From Aquabacterium sp. (GTDB lineage: Bacteria; Pseudomonadota; Gammaproteobacteria; Burkholderiales; Burkholderiaceae_C), in the NCBI RefSeq assembly GCF_014378415.1, contig NZ_JACMNS010000003.1, forward strand, positions 1 to 44,620: a stretch of 44,620 nt of DNA, given 5' to 3'. Positions 1,979 through 11,956 of this stretch are shown here, one piece after another. How positions within the stretch are numbered: position 1 is the first letter of the stretch; every line of letters starts with the position of its first letter. The notes under the pieces were generated by a model that saw only the letters and a program-made list of their open reading frames with translations, was not told the origin of the DNA and made no database searches. The position numbers and the translations under genes are program-made.

Positions 1979-2946
1979 AACGCAATGCCTTGCTCGTCGG
2001 CGGCTTCGTCGTCGCGGCCCTGATCCTGATCGTGGCGGGGCTTGTGACCCTGGGCGGTGCCGATCTGTTTGCCAAGCGGCAGAAGGCGATCGTTTATTTT
2101 CAAGGCAGTGTGCGGGGGCTGTACGTCGGGGCGCCGGTGAGCTTTCGGGGCGTGAAGATCGGCGAGGTGTTGAGCATCGGCATCGAGGTCGACCCCAAGT
2201 CCCTGGTCACGCGCATTCCCGTCGGGCTGACCCTGGGCAGCGACACCTTGAAAATGGGCGACGAAAAAAGTGGCAGCTTTCGCAACCTGCCTGAGCTGGT
2301 GCAGCGCGGCTTGCGCGCCAAGCTCATCATCCAGAGCGTGGTGACCGGCCAGACCAGCATCGACCTGGACTTCAAGCCCAACACCCCCTTGGTGTTGCTG
2401 GGCGGTGGCTCCAGCGCCCTGCCCGAGATCCCGGCCATGCGCGATAAGCTGGATGCGCTGCTGGACCAGGTGGCCGAGTTGCCCTTGGCCGACCTGGTCC
2501 AAGACGTGCGCAAGACCATCAACCAGCTGGACCAGACCTTGAAGGTCACCCAACAAGCGGTGGCCTTGTCGGGCAAGGAGATCGGTGCTGCGGCGGCGCA
2601 AGCCAAGCAGACCCTGGTGGTGGGGGCCAAGGCCTTGCAGGATGTGCAAGCCCAGGCGCAAGCCACATTGGCATCGGTGGCGCAGTTGTCGGAGTCCTCT
2701 CGCCAGGTGGTGCTGCAAACCCAGCCCGAGATTCAGCAAACTTTGCAGGCCGCCCGCGATGCGGCACAGGCTGCGCAGCAGGCCATGGGCAATTTTGCCG
2801 AACTCAGCGCCGTGGGATCGCCTTTACGGTCGGATGCCGAGCTGGCGGTGCGTGACTTGTCGCTGGCCGCGCGCAGCCTGCGCTCTTTTGCCGACCAGCT
2901 GGAGCGCCAGCCCAACACCATTTTGTTTGGGAAGAAAGCACCATGA
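1975..2946 (+). CDS. MlaD/PqiB-like MCE domain protein
   Basis: This 323-residue protein is the substrate-binding MCE component, anchored in the inner membrane and facing the periplasm. Residues 4-26 form one transmembrane helix. The single MCE domain spans about residues 38-115, with the conserved GSVRGLYVGAPVSFRGVKIGEV block. From about residue 155 to 300 the chain is rich in Ala, Gln and Leu and looks like a long helical coiled coil. It ends with LERQPNTILFGK, a tail common in MCE proteins that pair with PqiC-type lipoproteins. The start overlaps the ATPase stop by four bases, and its own TGA overlaps the next ATG (ATGA at 2943-2946). MlaC and MlaB homologues are absent from the operon. 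Confidence 0.9.
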   Translation: MKRNALLVGGFVVAALILIVAGLVTLGGADLFAKRQKAIVYFQGSVRGLYVGAPVSFRGVKIGEVLSIGIEVDPKSLVTRIPVGLTLGSDTLKMGDEKSGSFRNLPELVQRGLRAKLIIQSVVTGQTSIDLDFKPNTPLVLLGGGSSALPEIPAMRDKLDALLDQVAELPLADLVQDVRKTINQLDQTLKVTQQAVALSGKEIGAAAAQAKQTLVVGAKALQDVQAQAQATLASVAQLSESSRQVVLQTQPEIQQTLQAARDAAQAAQQAMGNFAELSAVGSPLRSDAELAVRDLSLAARSLRSFADQLERQPNTILFGKKAP

Positions 2947-3566
2947 TCACTTTGCGCCGCCTTGTCGTCTCCCGCGGTGTGGCCCTGTTGGCGCTGGGCC
3001 TGCTGAGTGCTTGCAGCACGGCCCCCGTGCCGACCTTGTTGTCGCTGCCCTTGCCACCCCCGGCTCAGCCAGCCGTGCCCGCTGTGGCAGCACCGGCCGT
3101 TTTGGCGGCCTCCGCCCTCAGGTTCATCACCCTGCGCCGCGTCAACATCCCCGAATACCTGCTAACCAATGCCGTGCGCTACCGCAATGCCGACAGCACA
3201 CTGGCCGAATGGCCGAACACCGCCTGGGCCGAGCGCCTGGAGGTGGGGCTGACCAACCAACTGGCCCTGCTTTTGCGGCAAGCTTTGCCGAGTTGGACCG
3301 TGTGTGACTCGCATTGCCCGTCCATGCCCACTGGGCAGGTGTTGATCGTCAACATGGCCCCGTTGGACTATGTGCGCAGCGCTGGGCAATTGCGCGCGGA
3401 TGTGAGTTGGCGCATCACCGGCCCGGGCAGCACGCCTACCCCGGTTTTCTCTGGCAGCAGCGCCTCCAGCACGGGGGTCTCGCCAGACACCCCGGTGGGC
3501 CAAGCCGCGGCCATCAGTACCTTGTTGAACCAGGTGGCGCAAGACGTCGCCCGCGCGGTGCGCTGA
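2943..3566 (+). CDS. PqiC-like ABC-type transport auxiliary lipoprotein
   Basis: This 207-residue protein carries a lipoprotein signal: hydrophobic residues 8-21 and an LSAC lipobox with Cys24. The mature part starts with a Pro/Ala-rich linker and continues into a domain with features of the ABC-type transport auxiliary lipoprotein family (LRFITLRRVNIPEYL near residues 60-74, then AEWPNTAWAERLEVGLTN). Proteins of this family anchor MCE tunnels at the outer membrane, as PqiC does for PqiB. It is the fourth and last gene of the operon and overlaps the MCE gene by four bases. The family call rests on context, lipobox and overall pattern. Confidence 0.82.
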   Translation: MITLRRLVVSRGVALLALGLLSACSTAPVPTLLSLPLPPPAQPAVPAVAAPAVLAASALRFITLRRVNIPEYLLTNAVRYRNADSTLAEWPNTAWAERLEVGLTNQLALLLRQALPSWTVCDSHCPSMPTGQVLIVNMAPLDYVRSAGQLRADVSWRITGPGSTPTPVFSGSSASSTGVSPDTPVGQAAAISTLLNQVAQDVARAVR

Positions 3567-3644
3567 CATTTATTTCACGGCACGGCCCCGGCGGGCACCC
3601 TGTTTGCTAATAACACAACGTTACCCACTAAAAGGAGAAGTGCC

Positions 3645-3872
3645 ATGAACCACATTCGACAGACATCCGTCCGCTTGGCGTTGACCGCTACCACCGCGTT
3701 GGCCTTGGCCGGTCTGGGCGCGTGCAGTGACATGTCCGCCCGTGACCGCAACACCGCCGTTGGCGCGGGTGTGGGCGCAGCCGCAGGTGCCGTGCTGACC
3801 GGCGGCAGCGCTGGTGGAACCATCGGTGGCGCAGCCGTCGGTGGCATCATCGGCAATCAAATCAAGAAATAA
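3645..3872 (+). CDS. Glycine-zipper 2TM lipoprotein, OsmB-like
   Basis: This 75-residue protein has a signal peptide ending in a lipobox (LGAC, Cys27), so it is probably a lipoprotein. The mature part is a short polar stretch followed by a glycine-zipper region from residue 40 with repeated G-x3-G spacing (GAGVGAAAGAVLTGG, then GGTIGGAAVGGIIG), as in OsmB and SlyB-type proteins of the envelope stress response. A strong ribosome binding site, AAGGAG, lies seven bases before the ATG. It opens a group of small genes with DUF3309 and the hemerythrin-like remnant, 79 bp after the MCE operon, and probably has its own promoter. Confidence 0.85.
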   Translation: MNHIRQTSVRLALTATTALALAGLGACSDMSARDRNTAVGAGVGAAAGAVLTGGSAGGTIGGAAVGGIIGNQIKK

Positions 3873-3883
3873 GGAGAGCCATC

Positions 3884-4042
3884 ATGGGCTTGGGAACCAT
3901 CCTTCTGATCGTTGTTGTGTTGATGCTCATTGGCGCTGTGCCCACCTGGGGTCACAGTCGAAGCTGGGGTTACGGCCCCAGTGGCGGCCTGGGTTTGATC
4001 CTGGTCGTGCTGATCGTGTTGATGTTGATGGGCCGACTTTGA
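3884..4042 (+). CDS. DUF3309 family small membrane protein
   Basis: A 52-residue membrane peptide with two hydrophobic segments (about residues 4-18 and 34-50) joined by the conserved PTWGHSRSWGYGPSGG loop, which is diagnostic of DUF3309. Family members are about 50 residues long, so this one is complete. Its function is unknown; such genes often sit with stress-induced envelope genes, as here. A ribosome binding site (AAGGAG at 3871-3876) precedes the ATG by seven bases and shares an A with the stop codon of the previous gene, so the two are very likely cotranscribed. Confidence 0.88.
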   Translation: MGLGTILLIVVVLMLIGAVPTWGHSRSWGYGPSGGLGLILVVLIVLMLMGRL

Positions 4043-4085
4043 CCTTCGCTGCCTGACTTTTTTCCATCAACCCGAGGAAACAAAC

Positions 4086-4343
4086 ATGCCAACCACCGCC
4101 AAACAACCCGCTGTCAAAACCAAGGCCAAAACCACCCCCGATGCCGTGCAACTGCTCACTGCCGACCACAAGGAAGTCAGGAAGCTGTTCAAGGGCTACG
4201 AGAAGTTTGTCAAGGCTGAAGACGTGCTGAAAGAAGCGGTGGTGGAGCATGCCAGCGCCAAGGACCTGCACCAATTGGGCGATGTCACGGCCAGCCGCAA
4301 GGAAGAATTGATGTCGGAACTTGGTGCCGAAGCGGCCGCGTGA
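4086..4343 (+). CDS. Hemerythrin-like HHE protein with two internal deletions
   Basis: An 85-residue product that reads like a bacterial hemerythrin HHE-domain protein with the middle missing twice. Residues 19-46 match the first helix (DAVQLLTADHKEVRKLFKGYEK). Residues 47-62 match the third-helix region (VEHASAKDL). Residues 67-80 match the C-terminal tail (ASRKEELMSELG). Full-length relatives have about 80-100 more residues, including the HxxxE and HHxxxE iron-ligand motifs, which are absent here; only His28 and His55 remain. The reading frame is preserved across both joins. It is therefore either a decaying gene or a reduced protein that no longer binds a diiron site. A GAGGAAA ribosome binding site precedes the ATG. 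Confidence 0.65.
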   Translation: MPTTAKQPAVKTKAKTTPDAVQLLTADHKEVRKLFKGYEKFVKAEDVLKEAVVEHASAKDLHQLGDVTASRKEELMSELGAEAAA

Positions 4344-4354
4344 TCCAATCGCGC

Positions 4355-5440
4355 ATGCCTACCCCACACCGCCCCTTTCGTTCCACCCTGTTGGCCCTGG
4401 GCGTGGGGCTCGCTGCCCCCGCTTTCGCCCAGGCGCCCCTTGACCTGAAGGAGTGCCTGGGCTTGCCAGAAGCCAGTGCGCGCTTGGCCTGCTACGACAG
4501 GCTGGCCGGGCGCGAGGCCATGGTGACGCTGCCTGCCTCGCCCGTCGTGGTGCCGGGAACTGCAGCCGCTGTGCCTGTCAGCCAGGCGGCGACGCCGGCC
4601 ACCCTACAACAGTCCGAGAGCAGCTTCATGTCTCGCTACTGGGAGTTGGACCAGGCCGACAAGCGCGGCACCTTCAACTACACCAGCTACCGCCCCAATT
4701 TTTTCATGCCTTTGCATGAGATGAAATCGGTTAACCGCCGACCCAGCACCCCGACCCGGGGCACCGCCAGCACCTTGCCCCGCTACCAGAATGGCGAGGC
4801 CAAGATCCAGGTGTCGATGCGCAGCAAGGTGTGGGAAAACGCCGTGTTGCCCGGCGCCGATCTGTGGGTGGCCTACACCCAGCAGTCGATGTGGCAACTG
4901 TGGAACCACGAGCAGTCTGCGCCGTTTCGCAGCACCGATTACCAGCCGGAGGTCATCTACGTGGTGCCCACTCCCGCGTCCTGGCAGAAGCTGCCGCTGG
5001 GCTGGTCCTGGCGCATGTCGCAGGCTGGCATCGTGCACCAGTCCAATGGCCAACCCGACCCCTTGTCGCGCAGCTGGAACCGCGTCTATGCACAGGTGGG
5101 CCTGGAGCGTCGTGACGTCATGTTCAACCTGCGGCTGGAGCAGCGCCTGAAGACCGACAGCGTCGTGGGCGACGACAACCCGGACGTCCAGGACTACCTG
5201 GGCCGAGCCGAGGCGCAGCTGATGTGGACTCCGGGGCGTTCGACCGCAGTGCTGGCCTGGCGGCCATCCTTGTCGGGCAAGGGTTCGGTGCAGCTGGACT
5301 GGTCCTATCCCGTGTTCAACGACCGGCCTGATGGCCTGCGTTGGTACGCGCAAGTTTTCCAGGGCTATGGCGAAACTTTGCTGGATTACAACTTCAAACA
5401 GACCAGCTTGAGTCTGGGGTTGACGATCTTCAAATTCTGA
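4355..5440 (+). CDS. pldA: Outer membrane phospholipase A (OMPLA)
   Basis: A 361-residue outer-membrane beta-barrel phospholipase A1/A2. It hydrolyses phospholipids that appear in the outer leaflet. The catalytic set is His228, Ser230 and Asn242 in IVHQSNGQPDPLSRSWNRVY, with the same spacing as His142, Ser144 and Asn156 of the E. coli enzyme. An N-terminal signal peptide (PTPHRPFRSTLLALGVG...AFAQ) precedes an LKECL...ARLACYDRLAG segment often seen in betaproteobacterial members, and the chain ends with an aromatic residue (IFKF) as barrels do. I chose the ATG at 4355, which gives a clean signal peptide; a GTG at 4340 overlapping the previous stop would add five residues. Neither start has a clear ribosome binding site. 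Confidence 0.92.
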   Translation: MPTPHRPFRSTLLALGVGLAAPAFAQAPLDLKECLGLPEASARLACYDRLAGREAMVTLPASPVVVPGTAAAVPVSQAATPATLQQSESSFMSRYWELDQADKRGTFNYTSYRPNFFMPLHEMKSVNRRPSTPTRGTASTLPRYQNGEAKIQVSMRSKVWENAVLPGADLWVAYTQQSMWQLWNHEQSAPFRSTDYQPEVIYVVPTPASWQKLPLGWSWRMSQAGIVHQSNGQPDPLSRSWNRVYAQVGLERRDVMFNLRLEQRLKTDSVVGDDNPDVQDYLGRAEAQLMWTPGRSTAVLAWRPSLSGKGSVQLDWSYPVFNDRPDGLRWYAQVFQGYGETLLDYNFKQTSLSLGLTIFKF

Positions 5441-7300: not shown

Positions 7301-10147
7301 CTAAAACCCCCTCAGGTCATCCACCGGCGTCTTCAGCGCACCACCGCTGATGCGCTGCACCGCCCGGCTGACCACGTCCACATCGTTGTCAAACGTGCCA
7401 TGGGCCGCTTTGGCTTGGCGATCTGGCTTGGCCACGGTGATCTTGTCCTGCTCCACCACCACCAGGCGCTCGCCCGGCACCAGGCCCGCATTGGCCGCTG
7501 CCTGCCGCCAACTGCGCAAGGATTCGCCCGTGCTCGATGAGCCATCCCACCCCCGGTAGTCGGCGTTGAACACGTTGTCCATGCCAAGGATGGGTGTGCG
7601 CAGATCGGTTTCCAGCGCGCTGGAGACAAGGTACAGCAGCGACTTGCGGTAGATGGCCACCACGTTGTCATCACGCTCATTGCGGTCGGACAGCACCTGC
7701 AGGTGAAGCTTCTTCATCAGGTCCGCATGCGGTGCGTAGTGCTGGTTGGCGAACTGCACGCTGCAGGCCGGTGCCCACAGCTGGATCGACGAAATCTGAT
7801 CGACCAGGCCGCGCTTGGCCACCAGGTCCAGCATGTGGCCCAGGATGATCGAGCCGGCCGAGTGGCCCACCAAGTGGATCTCCAGGTCGTCGCCCCAGGT
7901 GCTCACCAGCTTTTGCAAGGCGGTGATCAGCAGGTCGCCACCGCGCGTGGCGTTGAAAGCCAACTCGGCGTTCTCTTTCATCTCGCTCCACACCGGCTTG
8001 ACCAGGGGGCGGCCGATGGATTTTTCGATCAACAGGTCGGTGCGGTCGGTGATCCACTCGCCCACACCAGCGGCCGCGGGCGGTTGCTTGCGCCAGGCCT
8101 CCTGGATGATGTTGCCGATGCTTTCCATCAGGCCGGTCTTCCAGGCCAGGAACAGCGGATAGCAGCCATTGCCGGTGAAGAAGCGGCCCATGGCGCGCGC
8201 GCGCTTGATGGCGTCGGCCTCGCTGTTGAGGCCGCCATGCGCGTAGATCACCAGGCGCTTGACCTTGCCGGGCTGGCTGCGGAACCATGTGTCGGGCAGC
8301 ACCGAGGCCTGGTGCAGCAAGGTGCGACTGACTTCGTCTTCGGTCAGGTAGCGGCGCACGCGGCCATCGTTGCCCATCACGATGCTGTGCTGGTAGGCGC
8401 GGCGCTCGTCCCACCAGTTGGCGGGGTCGGCACCGGCGGTGCGGGTCTGGCTGGCGGCGGCCGTGGTCATGCCGCCCACCATCACGCCCGACACGCCCAA
8501 GGCCACCACCCAGGCGTCCATGCCGTTGGCCAACCAGTCGGCATACGTGAGCACGGCAAAGCCGCCGGCGCCCCAGCCAGGTCCCCAGGAGTTCTGCAGC
8601 ACAAAGCCCTGCTCGTTGAAGCCGACCAGTGCATAGGCGTGGCCATCGACTTCAGACGGGTGGCCGTCATACGGGATCACGGGCAGGCCGACATGGCCGG
8701 TGGGGGCTTGCGCCTTGTTGGCGATCTGGTTCCAGCCCTCGTGCGTGGTGCTGGAGACGTAGATAGCGCCCACCTCGCGGATGGCGGCCTGCAGGTCGGT
8801 GATGGACTTGACCTCAATGCGGTAGTAAACACCCAGGGTGTTTTGCGCGGCGCGTTGGGCGTAGCCGTACTTGGGCTGGGCGGGATCGTGGTCGCGGTGG
8901 GGCCAGTCGGTGTCCAGGCAGACGCCGTTGTGGAACCAGCCTTTGATGGCGCCCCGGCAGCTGGAGCCTTCGTAGTTCTCGCCGTCGTACTCGTCGTAAC
9001 GGCGCGCGAAGCTGTAGAGCATGGCGGCGCTGACGGACTCCAGCGCCTTGGGCATCTGCTGTTTGCGCCAGCGCAGGTAGTTGACCGTGCAGGCCAGGCC
9101 GAAGCCGGTGCAGGCGCCTTCCTGGCCTTGGTCGAGGATCAGGCCGGCCTTGGTGTAGGTGGACAGGAAGCGCTTGATGTCGGCGGAATCGGGGAACTCG
9201 CCGGGCAGGCTCACGGGGGGCGGCATGTAGAAGCGGTCGCGCAGGTCGGCCGGGTCTTTGGTGACGGTGAGTGGGCGCTTCTTGCTGACGTGGGGTGCGC
9301 TGCGCTTGCGGGCTGTGGCGCTGACGCCGACCTTGGGCTCAGGAATGGGCCACACCTGCTTGGTCAGGTCGAACACGTTCTTGAAGCGGTCCAGGCCGTG
9401 GGAGCCGCCGTTGACCATCTTGCGGGCAGCCAGGTATTGGCCTTCGGCCAGGGCGGCGCGCATGGGGTCGGCGCGGTGGGCCAGGAAGGTGGCCAGCAGC
9501 ATGGCGGCCACTTCGGGGGCATTGGCCAGGTCGGCGTTGCTGGTCAGGTCAATGCCGAGCTCGGTGCCGTATTGGGTGTAGTTGGCGCGGCCGGTGAGCT
9601 GGATGAAGCCGCGTCCCTTGAACTTGGCGCCGTCGCCGGGCTGGGTGTTGCCCAGGGCCTTGCGCCCGTCGTAGGCGCTGAAGGGGGCCATGCCGGGCTT
9701 GGTGTTGAACTGCGAGGGGAACTCGGAGATGGGCAAGAAGCCTTCGCTTTCAGCGCGGATGGTGCCCAGGGCCGCGCAGATCATGCTGCGGTCGTTCAGG
9801 CCCATGGCCTGCAGGGCGGCGGCCACGTAGGGAAGGTAGCGCGCGATGTTGGAGGGCTTGGTGGCGGGGAACAGGCGCCGCACGGCCTCGTTGTCCAGGA
9901 TGATGGCCAAGGGCGGCAGCGTGACCAGGCCCAGTATGGATTGGCAGCGCGGGCCGACCACGCCATCGGCAATCAGGCCAGTGCCGGATTGCCAGCGGCG
10001 CACGGCGGCTTCCAGGTCGGCGTCGAAGTCTTGGCCGGAGGCCAGCTTGCTGTAGTCGGCGCCGTCGGGGCCGAGCTCTTTGGCCAACTGTTGGCGCAGG
10101 CGCTTGACGTCTGCACCCTGGCTGCCCCTGATCAATAAACTGCCCAT
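7301..10147 (-). CDS. Four-domain protein: PG-binding, GH19-like, C1 peptidase, alpha/beta hydrolase
   Basis: A 948-residue protein joining four apparent domains. Residues 5-73 form a peptidoglycan-binding repeat (SQGADVKRLRQQL...ADGVVGPRCQSIL). Residues 85-265 resemble GH19 chitinase/endolysin domains, with a likely catalytic Glu in TIRAESEGF (133 or 135) and GRGFIQLTGRANY (178-190). Residues 300-550 are papain-like C1, with Cys346 in DQGQEGACTGFG, His503 in DGHAYALVGF and Asn519 in NSWGPGWG. Residues 628-850 look like an alpha/beta hydrolase, with AHGGLN and the nucleophile motif GHSAG (Ser763). No signal peptide or membrane segment is visible. The ATG has an AAGGGCGG ribosome binding site. 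It stands alone, convergent with fic. It may be an effector or lytic enzyme exported by a dedicated system; that is inference. Confidence 0.82.
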   Translation of the reverse strand: MGSLLIRGSQGADVKRLRQQLAKELGPDGADYSKLASGQDFDADLEAAVRRWQSGTGLIADGVVGPRCQSILGLVTLPPLAIILDNEAVRRLFPATKPSNIARYLPYVAAALQAMGLNDRSMICAALGTIRAESEGFLPISEFPSQFNTKPGMAPFSAYDGRKALGNTQPGDGAKFKGRGFIQLTGRANYTQYGTELGIDLTSNADLANAPEVAAMLLATFLAHRADPMRAALAEGQYLAARKMVNGGSHGLDRFKNVFDLTKQVWPIPEPKVGVSATARKRSAPHVSKKRPLTVTKDPADLRDRFYMPPPVSLPGEFPDSADIKRFLSTYTKAGLILDQGQEGACTGFGLACTVNYLRWRKQQMPKALESVSAAMLYSFARRYDEYDGENYEGSSCRGAIKGWFHNGVCLDTDWPHRDHDPAQPKYGYAQRAAQNTLGVYYRIEVKSITDLQAAIREVGAIYVSSTTHEGWNQIANKAQAPTGHVGLPVIPYDGHPSEVDGHAYALVGFNEQGFVLQNSWGPGWGAGGFAVLTYADWLANGMDAWVVALGVSGVMVGGMTTAAASQTRTAGADPANWWDERRAYQHSIVMGNDGRVRRYLTEDEVSRTLLHQASVLPDTWFRSQPGKVKRLVIYAHGGLNSEADAIKRARAMGRFFTGNGCYPLFLAWKTGLMESIGNIIQEAWRKQPPAAAGVGEWITDRTDLLIEKSIGRPLVKPVWSEMKENAELAFNATRGGDLLITALQKLVSTWGDDLEIHLVGHSAGSIILGHMLDLVAKRGLVDQISSIQLWAPACSVQFANQHYAPHADLMKKLHLQVLSDRNERDDNVVAIYRKSLLYLVSSALETDLRTPILGMDNVFNADYRGWDGSSSTGESLRSWRQAAANAGLVPGERLVVVEQDKITVAKPDRQAKAAHGTFDNDVDVVSRAVQRISGGALKTPVDDLRGF

Positions 10148-10271
10148 GATCCCGCCCTTGTGAAATGGAGTGCGCCATTTTTAGCAGGGAAGGTGTGGGT
10201 TGGCATCCCTAGGGCGGGGTTCAAACTAGGGGGGGCGTGGGTGCGCTTTGTTGGGTGCTTGTGGTAGGAGT

Positions 10272-10522
10272 GCGGGGCGAAAAAGGGCTGGGGCGGTCTC
10301 CGGCAGGGCGCCTGCTTGGTGCTGAGAAGCGCAGTGCCGAGGTGGGCACGCGCAGCGTGCTTCGTCATCTGACTGGCCGTGGTTGTTTGAACGAAGCGGA
10401 TGAAATCCGCGCAGTGAGTTCCACGGCCCCACCTCGGCATGAGCATCGCAAGGCAGTCCCACTTGAAAAGTGGGACCACCAAGCTGAAGCCCTGCCGGAG
10501 ACCGCCCCAGCCCGCGCCCCGC
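10272..10522. repeat. Multi-branched hairpin element (candidate structured RNA or mobile repeat)
   Basis: This gene-free stretch folds almost entirely on itself. Perfect complementary arms: 10285-10309 with 10489-10513 (25 bp), extended outward by 10272-10279 with 10515-10522 (8 bp). Inside are 10314-10320 with 10478-10484 (7 bp), 10335-10346 with 10428-10439 (12 bp) and 10375-10382 with 10421-10428 (8 bp). Three local hairpins have perfect stems and three-base loops: 10346-10360 (loop GCA), 10396-10410 (loop GAA) and 10456-10476 (loop GAA, 9-bp stem). I do not recognise a named RNA family. The design fits either a structured transcript or a DNA-folding repeat. Confidence 0.6.
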
Positions 10523-10563
10523 GCTGCCCGATAAAGCGTTCAACCCTCAGCGCACCAAGGCAC

Positions 10564-10779
10564 TCAAAAGGAGTCGTCGAGGATGAGCATGGCCTCATCG
10601 CGCCAATAAGCGGCTGCAGCAAAGAAGCCCTCCCACACGCAGCCATTGCAGCCACGCCCACAGCAACTGGTGGGCTCAGGCGGAGGCTGCCGAAGCGCAA
10701 CACCGCGCGCCTGCGCCTGCGCTTGCAGGGCCGCGAACATGCGCTGGGCCGAAGCCAGGTCGGTGAGCGGAAAGTCCAT
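10564..10779 (-). CDS. Oxidoreductase-like domain small protein
   Basis: A 71-residue protein containing the PPPEPTSCCGRGCNGCVWE block (residues 32-50) that defines the oxidoreductase-like domain family. Four cysteines (39, 40, 44, 47) are packed together and could bind metal or a cluster; the biochemical role of the family is not established. I chose the ATG at 10779, which starts 17 bases after the stop of the methyltransferase gene; a TTG at 10812 would extend it by 11 residues and overlap that gene. Neither start has a clear ribosome binding site. It is probably cotranscribed with, and translated after, the methyltransferase. Confidence 0.8.
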   Translation of the reverse strand: MDFPLTDLASAQRMFAALQAQAQARGVALRQPPPEPTSCCGRGCNGCVWEGFFAAAAYWRDEAMLILDDSF

Positions 10780-10795
10780 GAACGTCAACGTCAAC

Positions 10796-11956
10796 TCAGG
10801 CGCGAACCCCAAGGCGCCACAGCGAAGTCAGCTCGGCCTGGCGGGCCACGTGCAAAGGGTCGTTGTCATCGGTGACCTTGGGGTGGCGGGGCTTCACATC
10901 CAGGCGGGCAATGACGGTCAGCCCAGCGCCATCAATGGCTGCCTGCAATTCGGCCCGCGAGCGCAGGCCCAGGTGCTCGGCCAAGTCCGACATGATCAGC
11001 CAACCTTCGCCGCCGGGTTCCAGGTGCTCGGCCAAGCCATTCAGGAAGCCCTTCAGCATGCGGCTGTCGGGGTCGTACACCGCGTGCTCAATGGGCGAGC
11101 TGGGGCGGGCTGGCACCCAGGGCGGGTTGCAGACGATCAAGGGCGCGCGGCCTTCGGGGAACAAATCGGCCTGCACGATGTCCACCTTGGCAGCCAAGCC
11201 CAGCTGGTCGATGTTTTCGCGTGCGCAGGCCAGGGCCCGTGGGTCTTGGTCGGTGCCGACCACGCGGCCCACGCCACGGCGGGCCAGCACGGCGGCGATC
11301 ACGCCGGTGCCCGTGCCGATGTCGAAGGCCAGTGCTTTGCTGGCGGGCAGCGGGGCCTTGGCCAGCAGGTCGATGTACTCGCCCCGCACTGGCGAAAACA
11401 CGCCGTAGTGCGGGTGGATGCGGGCCTTGAGGAAGGGGATCTCGACCCCCTTCTTGCGCCACTCGTGCGCACCGATCAGGCCCAGCAACTCGCGCAGAGA
11501 GACCACGCTGGCTTCGCTCCCAGGGCCATAGGCCTCCACGCAAGCTTGCTGTGCATCAGGCGCGCGCCGCAGCGGGATCGCGTGGTCGGCGTCCAGCGGG
11601 ATCAGCACCATGCCCAGAACACGCGCACGCTGGGCCTGGGCTTGGCGGTGCAGGTTGAAGGCCTCGGCCGGTGTTGTTGAATTTTTGCGGGTTTTGCGAT
11701 CGTTGCGCCGCACCAGGGCCTGCACCAGGTGCCGGGCGTTTTGGTAGTCGCCACGCCACAACAGGCCGGTGCCTTCGCAGGCCAGTCGGTAAGCGGTGTC
11801 GGCGCTCATGCGGTCATCGGCCAGCACCACGCGCTTGGGCGGGGGGGCGGCGCTTTCAGAGCGCCAGCGGGCGGATTGATCTTGTTCGGCCTCGGTCCAG
11901 TGGACCAAGGGGAAGGGCGCTTCAAGCGCTGATGGGGGAGGTGTGTTGGGGCTCAT
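10796..11956 (-). CDS. Class I SAM-dependent methyltransferase, NPPW type
   Basis: A 386-residue cytoplasmic methyltransferase. The SAM-binding motif is FDIGTGTGVIAA (211-222), the acidic motif II residue follows in VVGTDQDPRA (232-241), and the catalytic-type motif CNPPW is at 276-280. The N/D-P-P-Y/F/W motif marks enzymes that methylate amide or exocyclic amino nitrogens, such as those acting on release factors, ribosomal proteins or rRNA. The roughly 200-residue N-terminal part (DRMSADTAYRLACEGTGLLWRGDYQNARHLVQAL) is probably a target-recognition domain. I cannot name the substrate. The start codon lies inside a perfect 9-bp hairpin (11952-11974). It is followed closely by the Cys-rich small gene. 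Confidence 0.85.
   Translation of the reverse strand: MSPNTPPPSALEAPFPLVHWTEAEQDQSARWRSESAAPPPKRVVLADDRMSADTAYRLACEGTGLLWRGDYQNARHLVQALVRRNDRKTRKNSTTPAEAFNLHRQAQAQRARVLGMVLIPLDADHAIPLRRAPDAQQACVEAYGPGSEASVVSLRELLGLIGAHEWRKKGVEIPFLKARIHPHYGVFSPVRGEYIDLLAKAPLPASKALAFDIGTGTGVIAAVLARRGVGRVVGTDQDPRALACARENIDQLGLAAKVDIVQADLFPEGRAPLIVCNPPWVPARPSSPIEHAVYDPDSRMLKGFLNGLAEHLEPGGEGWLIMSDLAEHLGLRSRAELQAAIDGAGLTVIARLDVKPRHPKVTDDNDPLHVARQAELTSLWRLGVRA

Follow-up and report, generated by a model that had tools for sequence, protein, structure and literature searches.

Inverted doublets of large, strand-specifically folding units in Burkholderiales: a candidate REPIN-like repeat family with giant units

The window analysed here is a stretch of 44,620 nucleotides of the Aquabacterium sp. 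genome (assembly GCF_014378415.1, contig NZ_JACMNS010000003.1, forward strand, positions 1 to 44,620). The sequence studied, unit E (10272-10522), sits between a gene whose end looks, by eye, oxidoreductase-like and the start of a gene encoding 948 amino acids (7301-10147). The 948-aa gene matches PG_binding_1 and Peptidase_C1 and has a sub-threshold Glyco_hydro_19 match, so that its domains read as peptidoglycan-binding, papain-like protease and a weak chitinase-19 match. The gap upstream of this gene holds E in the genome of the window (G000, 3.83 Mb in 211 contigs) and in the relative G015, and lacks it in the relative G031. The preliminary description had attached the element to the promoter side of a four-domain protein gene; no special tie between the two emerged, as G031 has the orthologous gene without an adjoining E. 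Nothing is annotated under E in two annotated records.

The minimum-energy fold of E matches the drawing made earlier. It is closed by a helix of 8 bp (10272-10279/10515-10522). Inside this helix lie the main stem of 25 bp (5′ arm 10285-10309 on the plus strand, pairing with 10489-10513), a stem of 8 bp (5′ arm 10314-10321, plus strand, with 10477-10484), a stem of 12 bp (5′ arm 10334-10345, plus strand, with 10429-10440) and another helix of 8 bp (10375-10382/10421-10428); helices of 2-3 bp occur besides these. Arms of 25, 12, 8, 8 and 7 bp had been claimed, of which the first four were reproduced and the last came out as 8 bp. The three local hairpins of the window copy were also recovered, all on the plus strand: a 6-bp stem with the loop GCA (10346-10360), a 6-bp stem with the loop GAA at the end of the apical arm (10396-10410) and a 9-bp stem with the loop GAA (10456-10476). 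The apical arm (10375-10428, plus strand) contains, in the fold and in the alignment, a conserved internal loop, TGTTTGA / GAGTT; TGTYTGA and GAGTT are present in distant members too. Folding was far stronger than expected from composition, with z values of -12.9 (RNA, plus strand), -13.3 (single-stranded DNA, plus strand) and -13.8 (RNA, minus strand), and none of 200 shuffled sequences equalled the fold energy (RNA on both strands, DNA on the plus strand).

E is a complete unit of what we call subtype A, in which the plus strand is the folded strand, the inner end is at 10272 and the outer end at 10522. The outer end is prolonged by a conserved extension (10523-10540, plus strand), which reads GCTGCCCCGACAAAGCG in many relatives when the outer ends of the best copy of each of 88 loci are compared by eye. 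In many of the distant members (flanks of loci L156 to L178) the outer stem was seen by eye to be followed by a second hairpin with a pyrimidine-rich tract like CCTTTCTTTGGTGACTTTCTTTGGCGAAGCAAAGAAAGT.

The genome of the window contains eight near full-length copies, the window copy included, and fragments. A DNA search, which scored five candidates per genome and thus gives lower bounds, found matches in at least 29 of 149 genomes (own genome included), with at least 25 of 42 in the genus and at least four in other genera. A pattern scan gave, among the matches listed, Acidovorax, Delftia, Comamonas, Variovorax, Simplicispira, Giesbergeria, Ramlibacter, Ottowia, Xenophilus, Rubrivivax, Piscinibacter, Rhodoferax and others. 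A covariance model built on the 169-nt core (R1) matched 65 of 399 genomes from the order (the genome of the window among them), which belong to 38 of 159 genera. Among 369 genomes drawn from the class, 22 matched, three of which also belonged to the order set; the class-set matches near E = 1e-4 may include chance matches. A deep R1 search of nine assemblies returned 29 matches in G015, 19 in G305, 18 in G034, 14 in G352, 13 in G038, 12 in G464, 10 in G182 and none in G031 and G013. The search of the genome and its relatives that the preliminary description had proposed thus identified E as a multi-copy sequence of many Burkholderiales genomes. From 88 loci we collected 131 non-overlapping copies, 110 of them full-length and 109 distinct. 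A second subtype, 'B', differs in its inner part (six representatives).

Conservation of the fold was assessed in an alignment of 42 of 49 representatives, mutually less than 87% identical (A1). The seven left out were the six of subtype 'B' and L006, whose match begins at base 31. The letters were aligned by MAFFT without structure, and the structure was the energy fold of the window copy. Of 3833 cells 94.7% were paired, and 68 of the 93 pairs showed two-sided change. None of 500 shuffles scored as high on any measure, and slid controls had 35.5-46.3% of cells paired. In the 25-bp main stem (helix 3) 94.9% of cells were paired and 16 of 25 pairs showed two-sided change; the paired fraction was 89.3% in helix 4 (the stem at 10314-10321), 96.8% in helix 6 (the 12-bp stem), 99.6% in helix 7 (the GCA hairpin) and 97.4% in helix 12 (the 9-bp hairpin). 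GNA triloops, emphasised in the preliminary description, were present at hairpins 1, 2 and 3 in only 28, 15 and 12 of the 42 copies; in five further copies hairpin 1 has an apparently longer loop, which might close on GCA. On these counts we rejected the GNA triloop as a signature of the family.

The fold is strand-specific, and the plus strand is the selected one. The inner-to-outer (plus) strand formed the more stable RNA in 105 of the 109 distinct copies, and the more stable DNA in 107. Mispairs pointed in the same direction: in the 93 pairs of the 42 aligned copies, read on the plus strand, there were 133 G.T/T.G against 58 A.C/C.A cells, and 98 G.A/A.G against 6 C.T/T.C cells. In the 109 distinct copies the corresponding counts were 368 G.T against 142 A.C, and 331 G.A against 27 C.T. 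These counts are unfiltered and cover all 93 pairs, and as the copies are related the cells are not independent. Some pair columns oppose plus-strand folding, the extreme one with 26 C.A cells of 42. Such an asymmetry is not what one would expect of a cruciform that needs both strands. The suggestion that E acts as a folded single strand is thus backed by compensatory changes, which had been named as a check, and by the strand asymmetry. The outcomes that had been held to speak against a functional fold, namely a single copy, unconserved pairing or variation without compensation, were looked for, and what was found is a repeated, conserved and compensated fold.

Strand specificity combined with tolerance of G.U pairs would also be expected of a structured non-coding RNA, transcribed from the spacer between two units outward or by read-through from the opposite convergent gene. 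On the same account the conserved loops would bind a protein or a small molecule, and unpaired letters that do not vary, for example in TGTTTGA/GAGTT, speak for it. We regard such an RNA, which G.U tolerance and invariant loops fit equally well, as the serious main rival to the interpretation given below, and as possible but rather doubtful. It has no relative in Rfam: a search of the window with Rfam 15 gave no match at gathering score, in agreement with the earlier impression that E belongs to no recognised named family. Searched at E ≤ 1, the 16 loci covered in all gave matches below gathering score only, none of them convincing (one ctRNA and one cspA outside the units, as well as Tymovirus tRNA-like, Sso133 and miRNA hairpin models, two of the last in the spacer of L200). 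Nor did a scan of positions 9900-10900 around the window copy detect a promoter-like site.

The copies are arranged in pairs. Neighbours less than 1 kb apart had their inner ends facing each other in 37 of 37 cases in a first set of copies and in 34 of 35 in a second, which covered 67 of 117 stretches; the sole exception was a Comamonas locus with three units. The whole repeat is therefore a structure of about 500-700 bases, in which two large folded units face each other. The spacers of the 28 doublets listed range from 33 to 473 bp, and a few pairs of units are further apart (0.45-4.6 kb). Spacers as short as 33 bp leave little room for the divergent promoters that a transcribed RNA would call for. 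At the inner edges GCCACCA occurs in 43 of 107 cases and a GCATGC, GCACGC or GCGTGC core in 63 of 107. The spacers of L074, L086, L109 and L111 have in common a degenerate ORF-like repeat around PGVLLGARGFLLGGPSSELGECTSMGR, possibly another repeat family. Identity between the partners of a doublet is 51-83%, so that the whole doublet is unlikely to form one long hairpin.

The window copy is half of such a larger inverted doublet, whose left partner has been lost. At the orthologous site G015 (L122) carries a full doublet, G031 carries none, and the genome of the window has the right unit and a short remnant. About 25 bases on the minus strand (10241-10265), recognised by eye, are probably what is left of the partner's outer end. 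Having lost its partner, the window copy is probably immobile on its own.

The six doublets of G352 illustrate the spread of the repeat. Each measures 519 bp between landmarks, and they are 88-97% identical. Of 15 comparisons of their flanks, taken 150-1300 bp away, two gave a match, 26 and 31 bp long; in the alignment three of the six doublets have a common further repeat directly outside. Comparison of same-side arms from different loci gives 91-94% identity, that of the two arms of one doublet 62%, which identifies the doublet as the spreading unit. The doublets at L317, L318 and L319 of the same genome adjoin or lie within a different palindromic repeat, which reads GGCCCTTTGCTGAAGTTCG and its inverse.

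G031, which has no R1 match, lacks E at three sites (window, L005 and L008) where relatives have it. At the L008 site E is present in G034, G015 and G004. At the L005 site G004 has a left unit and a right unit without its core, and the spacings are 8.2 kb in G034, 1.3 kb in G015 and 2.8 kb in G039; R1 found no match at this site in G034 or G015. In the G004 locus (L328) the core of the right unit is gone between the main-stem repeats, a loss that resembles slippage across the hairpin. The finding of near-identical doublets whose flanks are largely unrelated, together with the absence of E from the three G031 sites, supports the idea of a mobile, MITE-like repeat. No target-site duplication was recognised by eye at the empty sites of G031 and G019, where the flanks have diverged. 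No travelling gene was found among ORFs of at least 100 aa within about 2.5 kb of the units, the ORFs being compared unannotated; matches between ORFs near E in the same genome amounted to a single duplicated stretch, in G084, and to three pairs of distant paralogues. The lack of a common neighbour gene in this comparison also counts against a structured RNA.

Orthologous sites were compared in 18 pairs, 11 with both flanks in common and seven with one; the L074/L084 pair was left out, since spacer similarity was its sole support. In the 1444 cells of the 18 pairs there were 81 double compensatory, 55 wobble and 51 breaking changes, and in the 886 cells of the both-flank pairs 63, 33 and 37, respectively. 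The direction of the strand bias was the same (63 G.T, 21 A.C). Compensatory change at orthologous sites is what a structured RNA predicts, and its excess over breaking change could reflect selection at each site and hence a function for the host; the alternative is exchange between copies. The nearest copy was the orthologous one in 17 of 36 comparisons, and in seven of 22 with both flanks in common. That the orthologous copy is often not the nearest is what movement of copies or conversion between them would produce. Copies thus appear to be replaced or converted by one another, and selection in place is not the only way to read the compensations. For this reason we rejected orthologous-site compensation as proof of a host function. 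At L060, L063, L076 and L077 the flanks of doublets are swapped between G002 and G005, which suggests a chromosome rearrangement by recombination between doublets.

The position of the copies relative to genes was determined with gene calls from a codon-usage script instead of a standard gene finder. The outer end pointed toward the 3′ end of a gene in 85 of 105 copies of a first set, at a median distance of 48 bp, and in 55 of 86 copies of a second; it faced a gene start in the remaining 20 and 31 copies. The first set consists of the 110 full-length copies minus those that scored below 30 bits or had no gene called beyond the outer end, the second of the 108 matches at titled loci minus those without a gene within 800 bp. 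Doublets with both flanks called, 23 of 35 neighbour pairs, lay between convergent genes in 11 cases, compared with 17 of 99 control gaps without E. This placement raises the question whether the doublets are bidirectional 3′-end structures of convergent genes, either terminators or RNA stabilisers, and a run of T seen by eye after the main stem on the gene-sense strand of several copies would suit such a role. We consider it distinctly unlikely: selection acts on the strand that is antisense to the adjoining gene, the copies that face gene starts are left over, and neither a length of 250 bases nor conserved internal loops should be necessary for a terminator. A generic terminator in particular was rejected, since a terminator scan of 9900-10900 found none around the window copy and the wrong strand is selected.

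Several units are interrupted by an IS110-family element (PF02371 and PF01548). It splits E at one fixed spot in a conserved GAG-NAGC stretch; in the window this stretch reads TGAGAAGCGCA (10323-10333, plus strand), and the corresponding spot is next to the GAG at 10324-10326. The spot is defined by junctions in L339, L340 and L341 of G305 and in L108 and L274. G305 had been searched by transposase, not by E, and L108 and L274 were fetched as E-containing loci. G305 has six near-identical IS copies of about 1.46 kb, three of which lie within E units. In all six copies the left junction reads GAG and the right one NAGCRCA, and the GAG may belong either to the target or to the IS element. An exact search for the end of the IS110-family element found none in 299 genomes of the family. 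We rejected PF02371 as the mobiliser of E, as the element inserts into E and PF02371 was present in seven of 15 genomes tested.

Genes lie between the two units in five loci: a PEP-CTERM gene in L045, one gene without Pfam match in L086, a DUF1963 gene in L087, a Phd/YefM-YoeB toxin-antitoxin pair and a DUF642/PEP-CTERM gene in L088, and a DUF4145 gene with two genes without Pfam match in L111. Both flanks of the L088 site are orthologous to those of L064 and L109, where genes of this kind are absent. The stretch between the L088 units (2424-4551) also contains GCCTAAC/GTTAGGC, which by eye resembles an integron attC site. The same-spot insertions, the cargo, including its presence in L088 at the site shared with L064 and L109, and the exchange of flanks between G002 and G005 could together mean that E is chiefly a landing or recombination site for IS110-family elements and cargo, its copies being kept alike by concerted evolution. 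We hold this to be very unlikely as the main explanation. The 28 doublets listed, with spacers of at most 473 bp, have no room for such cargo, and the strand-specific covariation would be left unexplained.

A fold on one strand, an inverted doublet and the spread of that doublet as a unit are best accommodated by a REPIN-like element, and we tentatively favour the view, without giving it even odds, that E is a REPIN-like non-autonomous mobile doublet whose giant units act as folded single strands. Two units of about 250 bases, separated by a short spacer, stand head to head. Each folds alone into a branched hairpin, only on the strand read from the spacer outward. As the units are inverted, any strand made single, whether by replication, transcription or DNA uptake, always has one of the two units oriented so that it can fold. 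On this view the folded strand would be DNA; a host or element protein acting in trans would recognise it and copy or move the whole doublet, and doublet copies would then exchange sequence via recombination.

The interest of the family lies in its scale. The known extragenic palindromic repeats are short, and E units keep a 12-helix fold over 250 nt. A compensated fold on one strand in a doublet that travels would imply a protein able to read a large folded single strand. The family occurs in genera with many sequenced genomes, among them Acidovorax, Delftia, Comamonas and Variovorax, and E is the precise target of an IS110-family element. With some reserve we propose that E may belong to a very large class, so far without a name, of inverted doublets that fold strand-specifically as DNA or RNA across Burkholderiales, perhaps also in further Gammaproteobacteria, with a single-strand-reading machinery of its own and a role as an IS110 docking site.

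Among known systems, the integron attC site is a strand-specific folded site at gene 3′ ends, whose folded strand is antisense to the gene, and its end boxes are GTTRRRY. E resembles attC in its strand-specific fold, its position at gene 3′ ends and the use of the antisense strand, with cargo in few loci; it differs in its 250-nt length and in its inverted instead of direct arrangement, and no GTTRRRY end boxes were seen in E by eye. IS110/IS1111-family elements target palindromes, and the IS110 family is a group of interest for RNA-guided recombination. The fixed-spot insertion makes E similar to these target palindromes, but a target role leaves its spread and its fold unexplained. A phage or plasmid origin was rejected: the window copy had no match, and one exact pattern found none in viral contigs. 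The phage/plasmid search with an Acidovorax copy returned only two large replicons, of Comamonas and Variovorax. The intrastrand-triplex motif is different, being, in the portion of the source available, a motif of 37 nt (PMC4666352).

Four letter strings of the apical motif were absent from the papers searched, and in the literature covered, mostly outside subscription papers and in part as excerpts, we found no description of the element. The nearest is BRE, which the excerpted account describes as dispersed and usually intergenic in Betaproteobacteria including Delftia and Acidovorax, 75-91 bp long in Bordetella and tandem at some loci (PMC3110155). E, with its 250-nt units in inverted doublets, differs from BRE as so described in length and arrangement, and part of the E family may possibly be known already as BRE.

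The closest likeness is with REPIN and BIME. In the available part of its description, a REPIN is an intergenic inverted doublet of palindromic units, which replicates as a doublet and whose single strands fold (PMC3116915); REPs are described, again in an excerpt, with a 5′ GT[AG]G foot (PMC6006769). E shares with REPIN and BIME the inverted palindromic doublet, the intergenic position and the doublet as the spreading unit. REPIN units measure 20-40 bp, whereas E units have about 250 nt and are multi-branched, with 12 helices, and the whole REPIN doublet forms one long hairpin, which is unlikely for E. REPIN and BIME are mobilised by RAYT/TnpA-REP, whereas E has no obligate RAYT: in 41 genomes of the genus searched, the RAYT-type Y1 transposase PF01797 was no commoner in E-positive (12 of 24) than in E-negative genomes (10 of 17), E status being a lower bound, and RAYT was rejected as an obligate partner. 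E is, tentatively, best read as a variant of the extragenic palindromic repeats with giant units.
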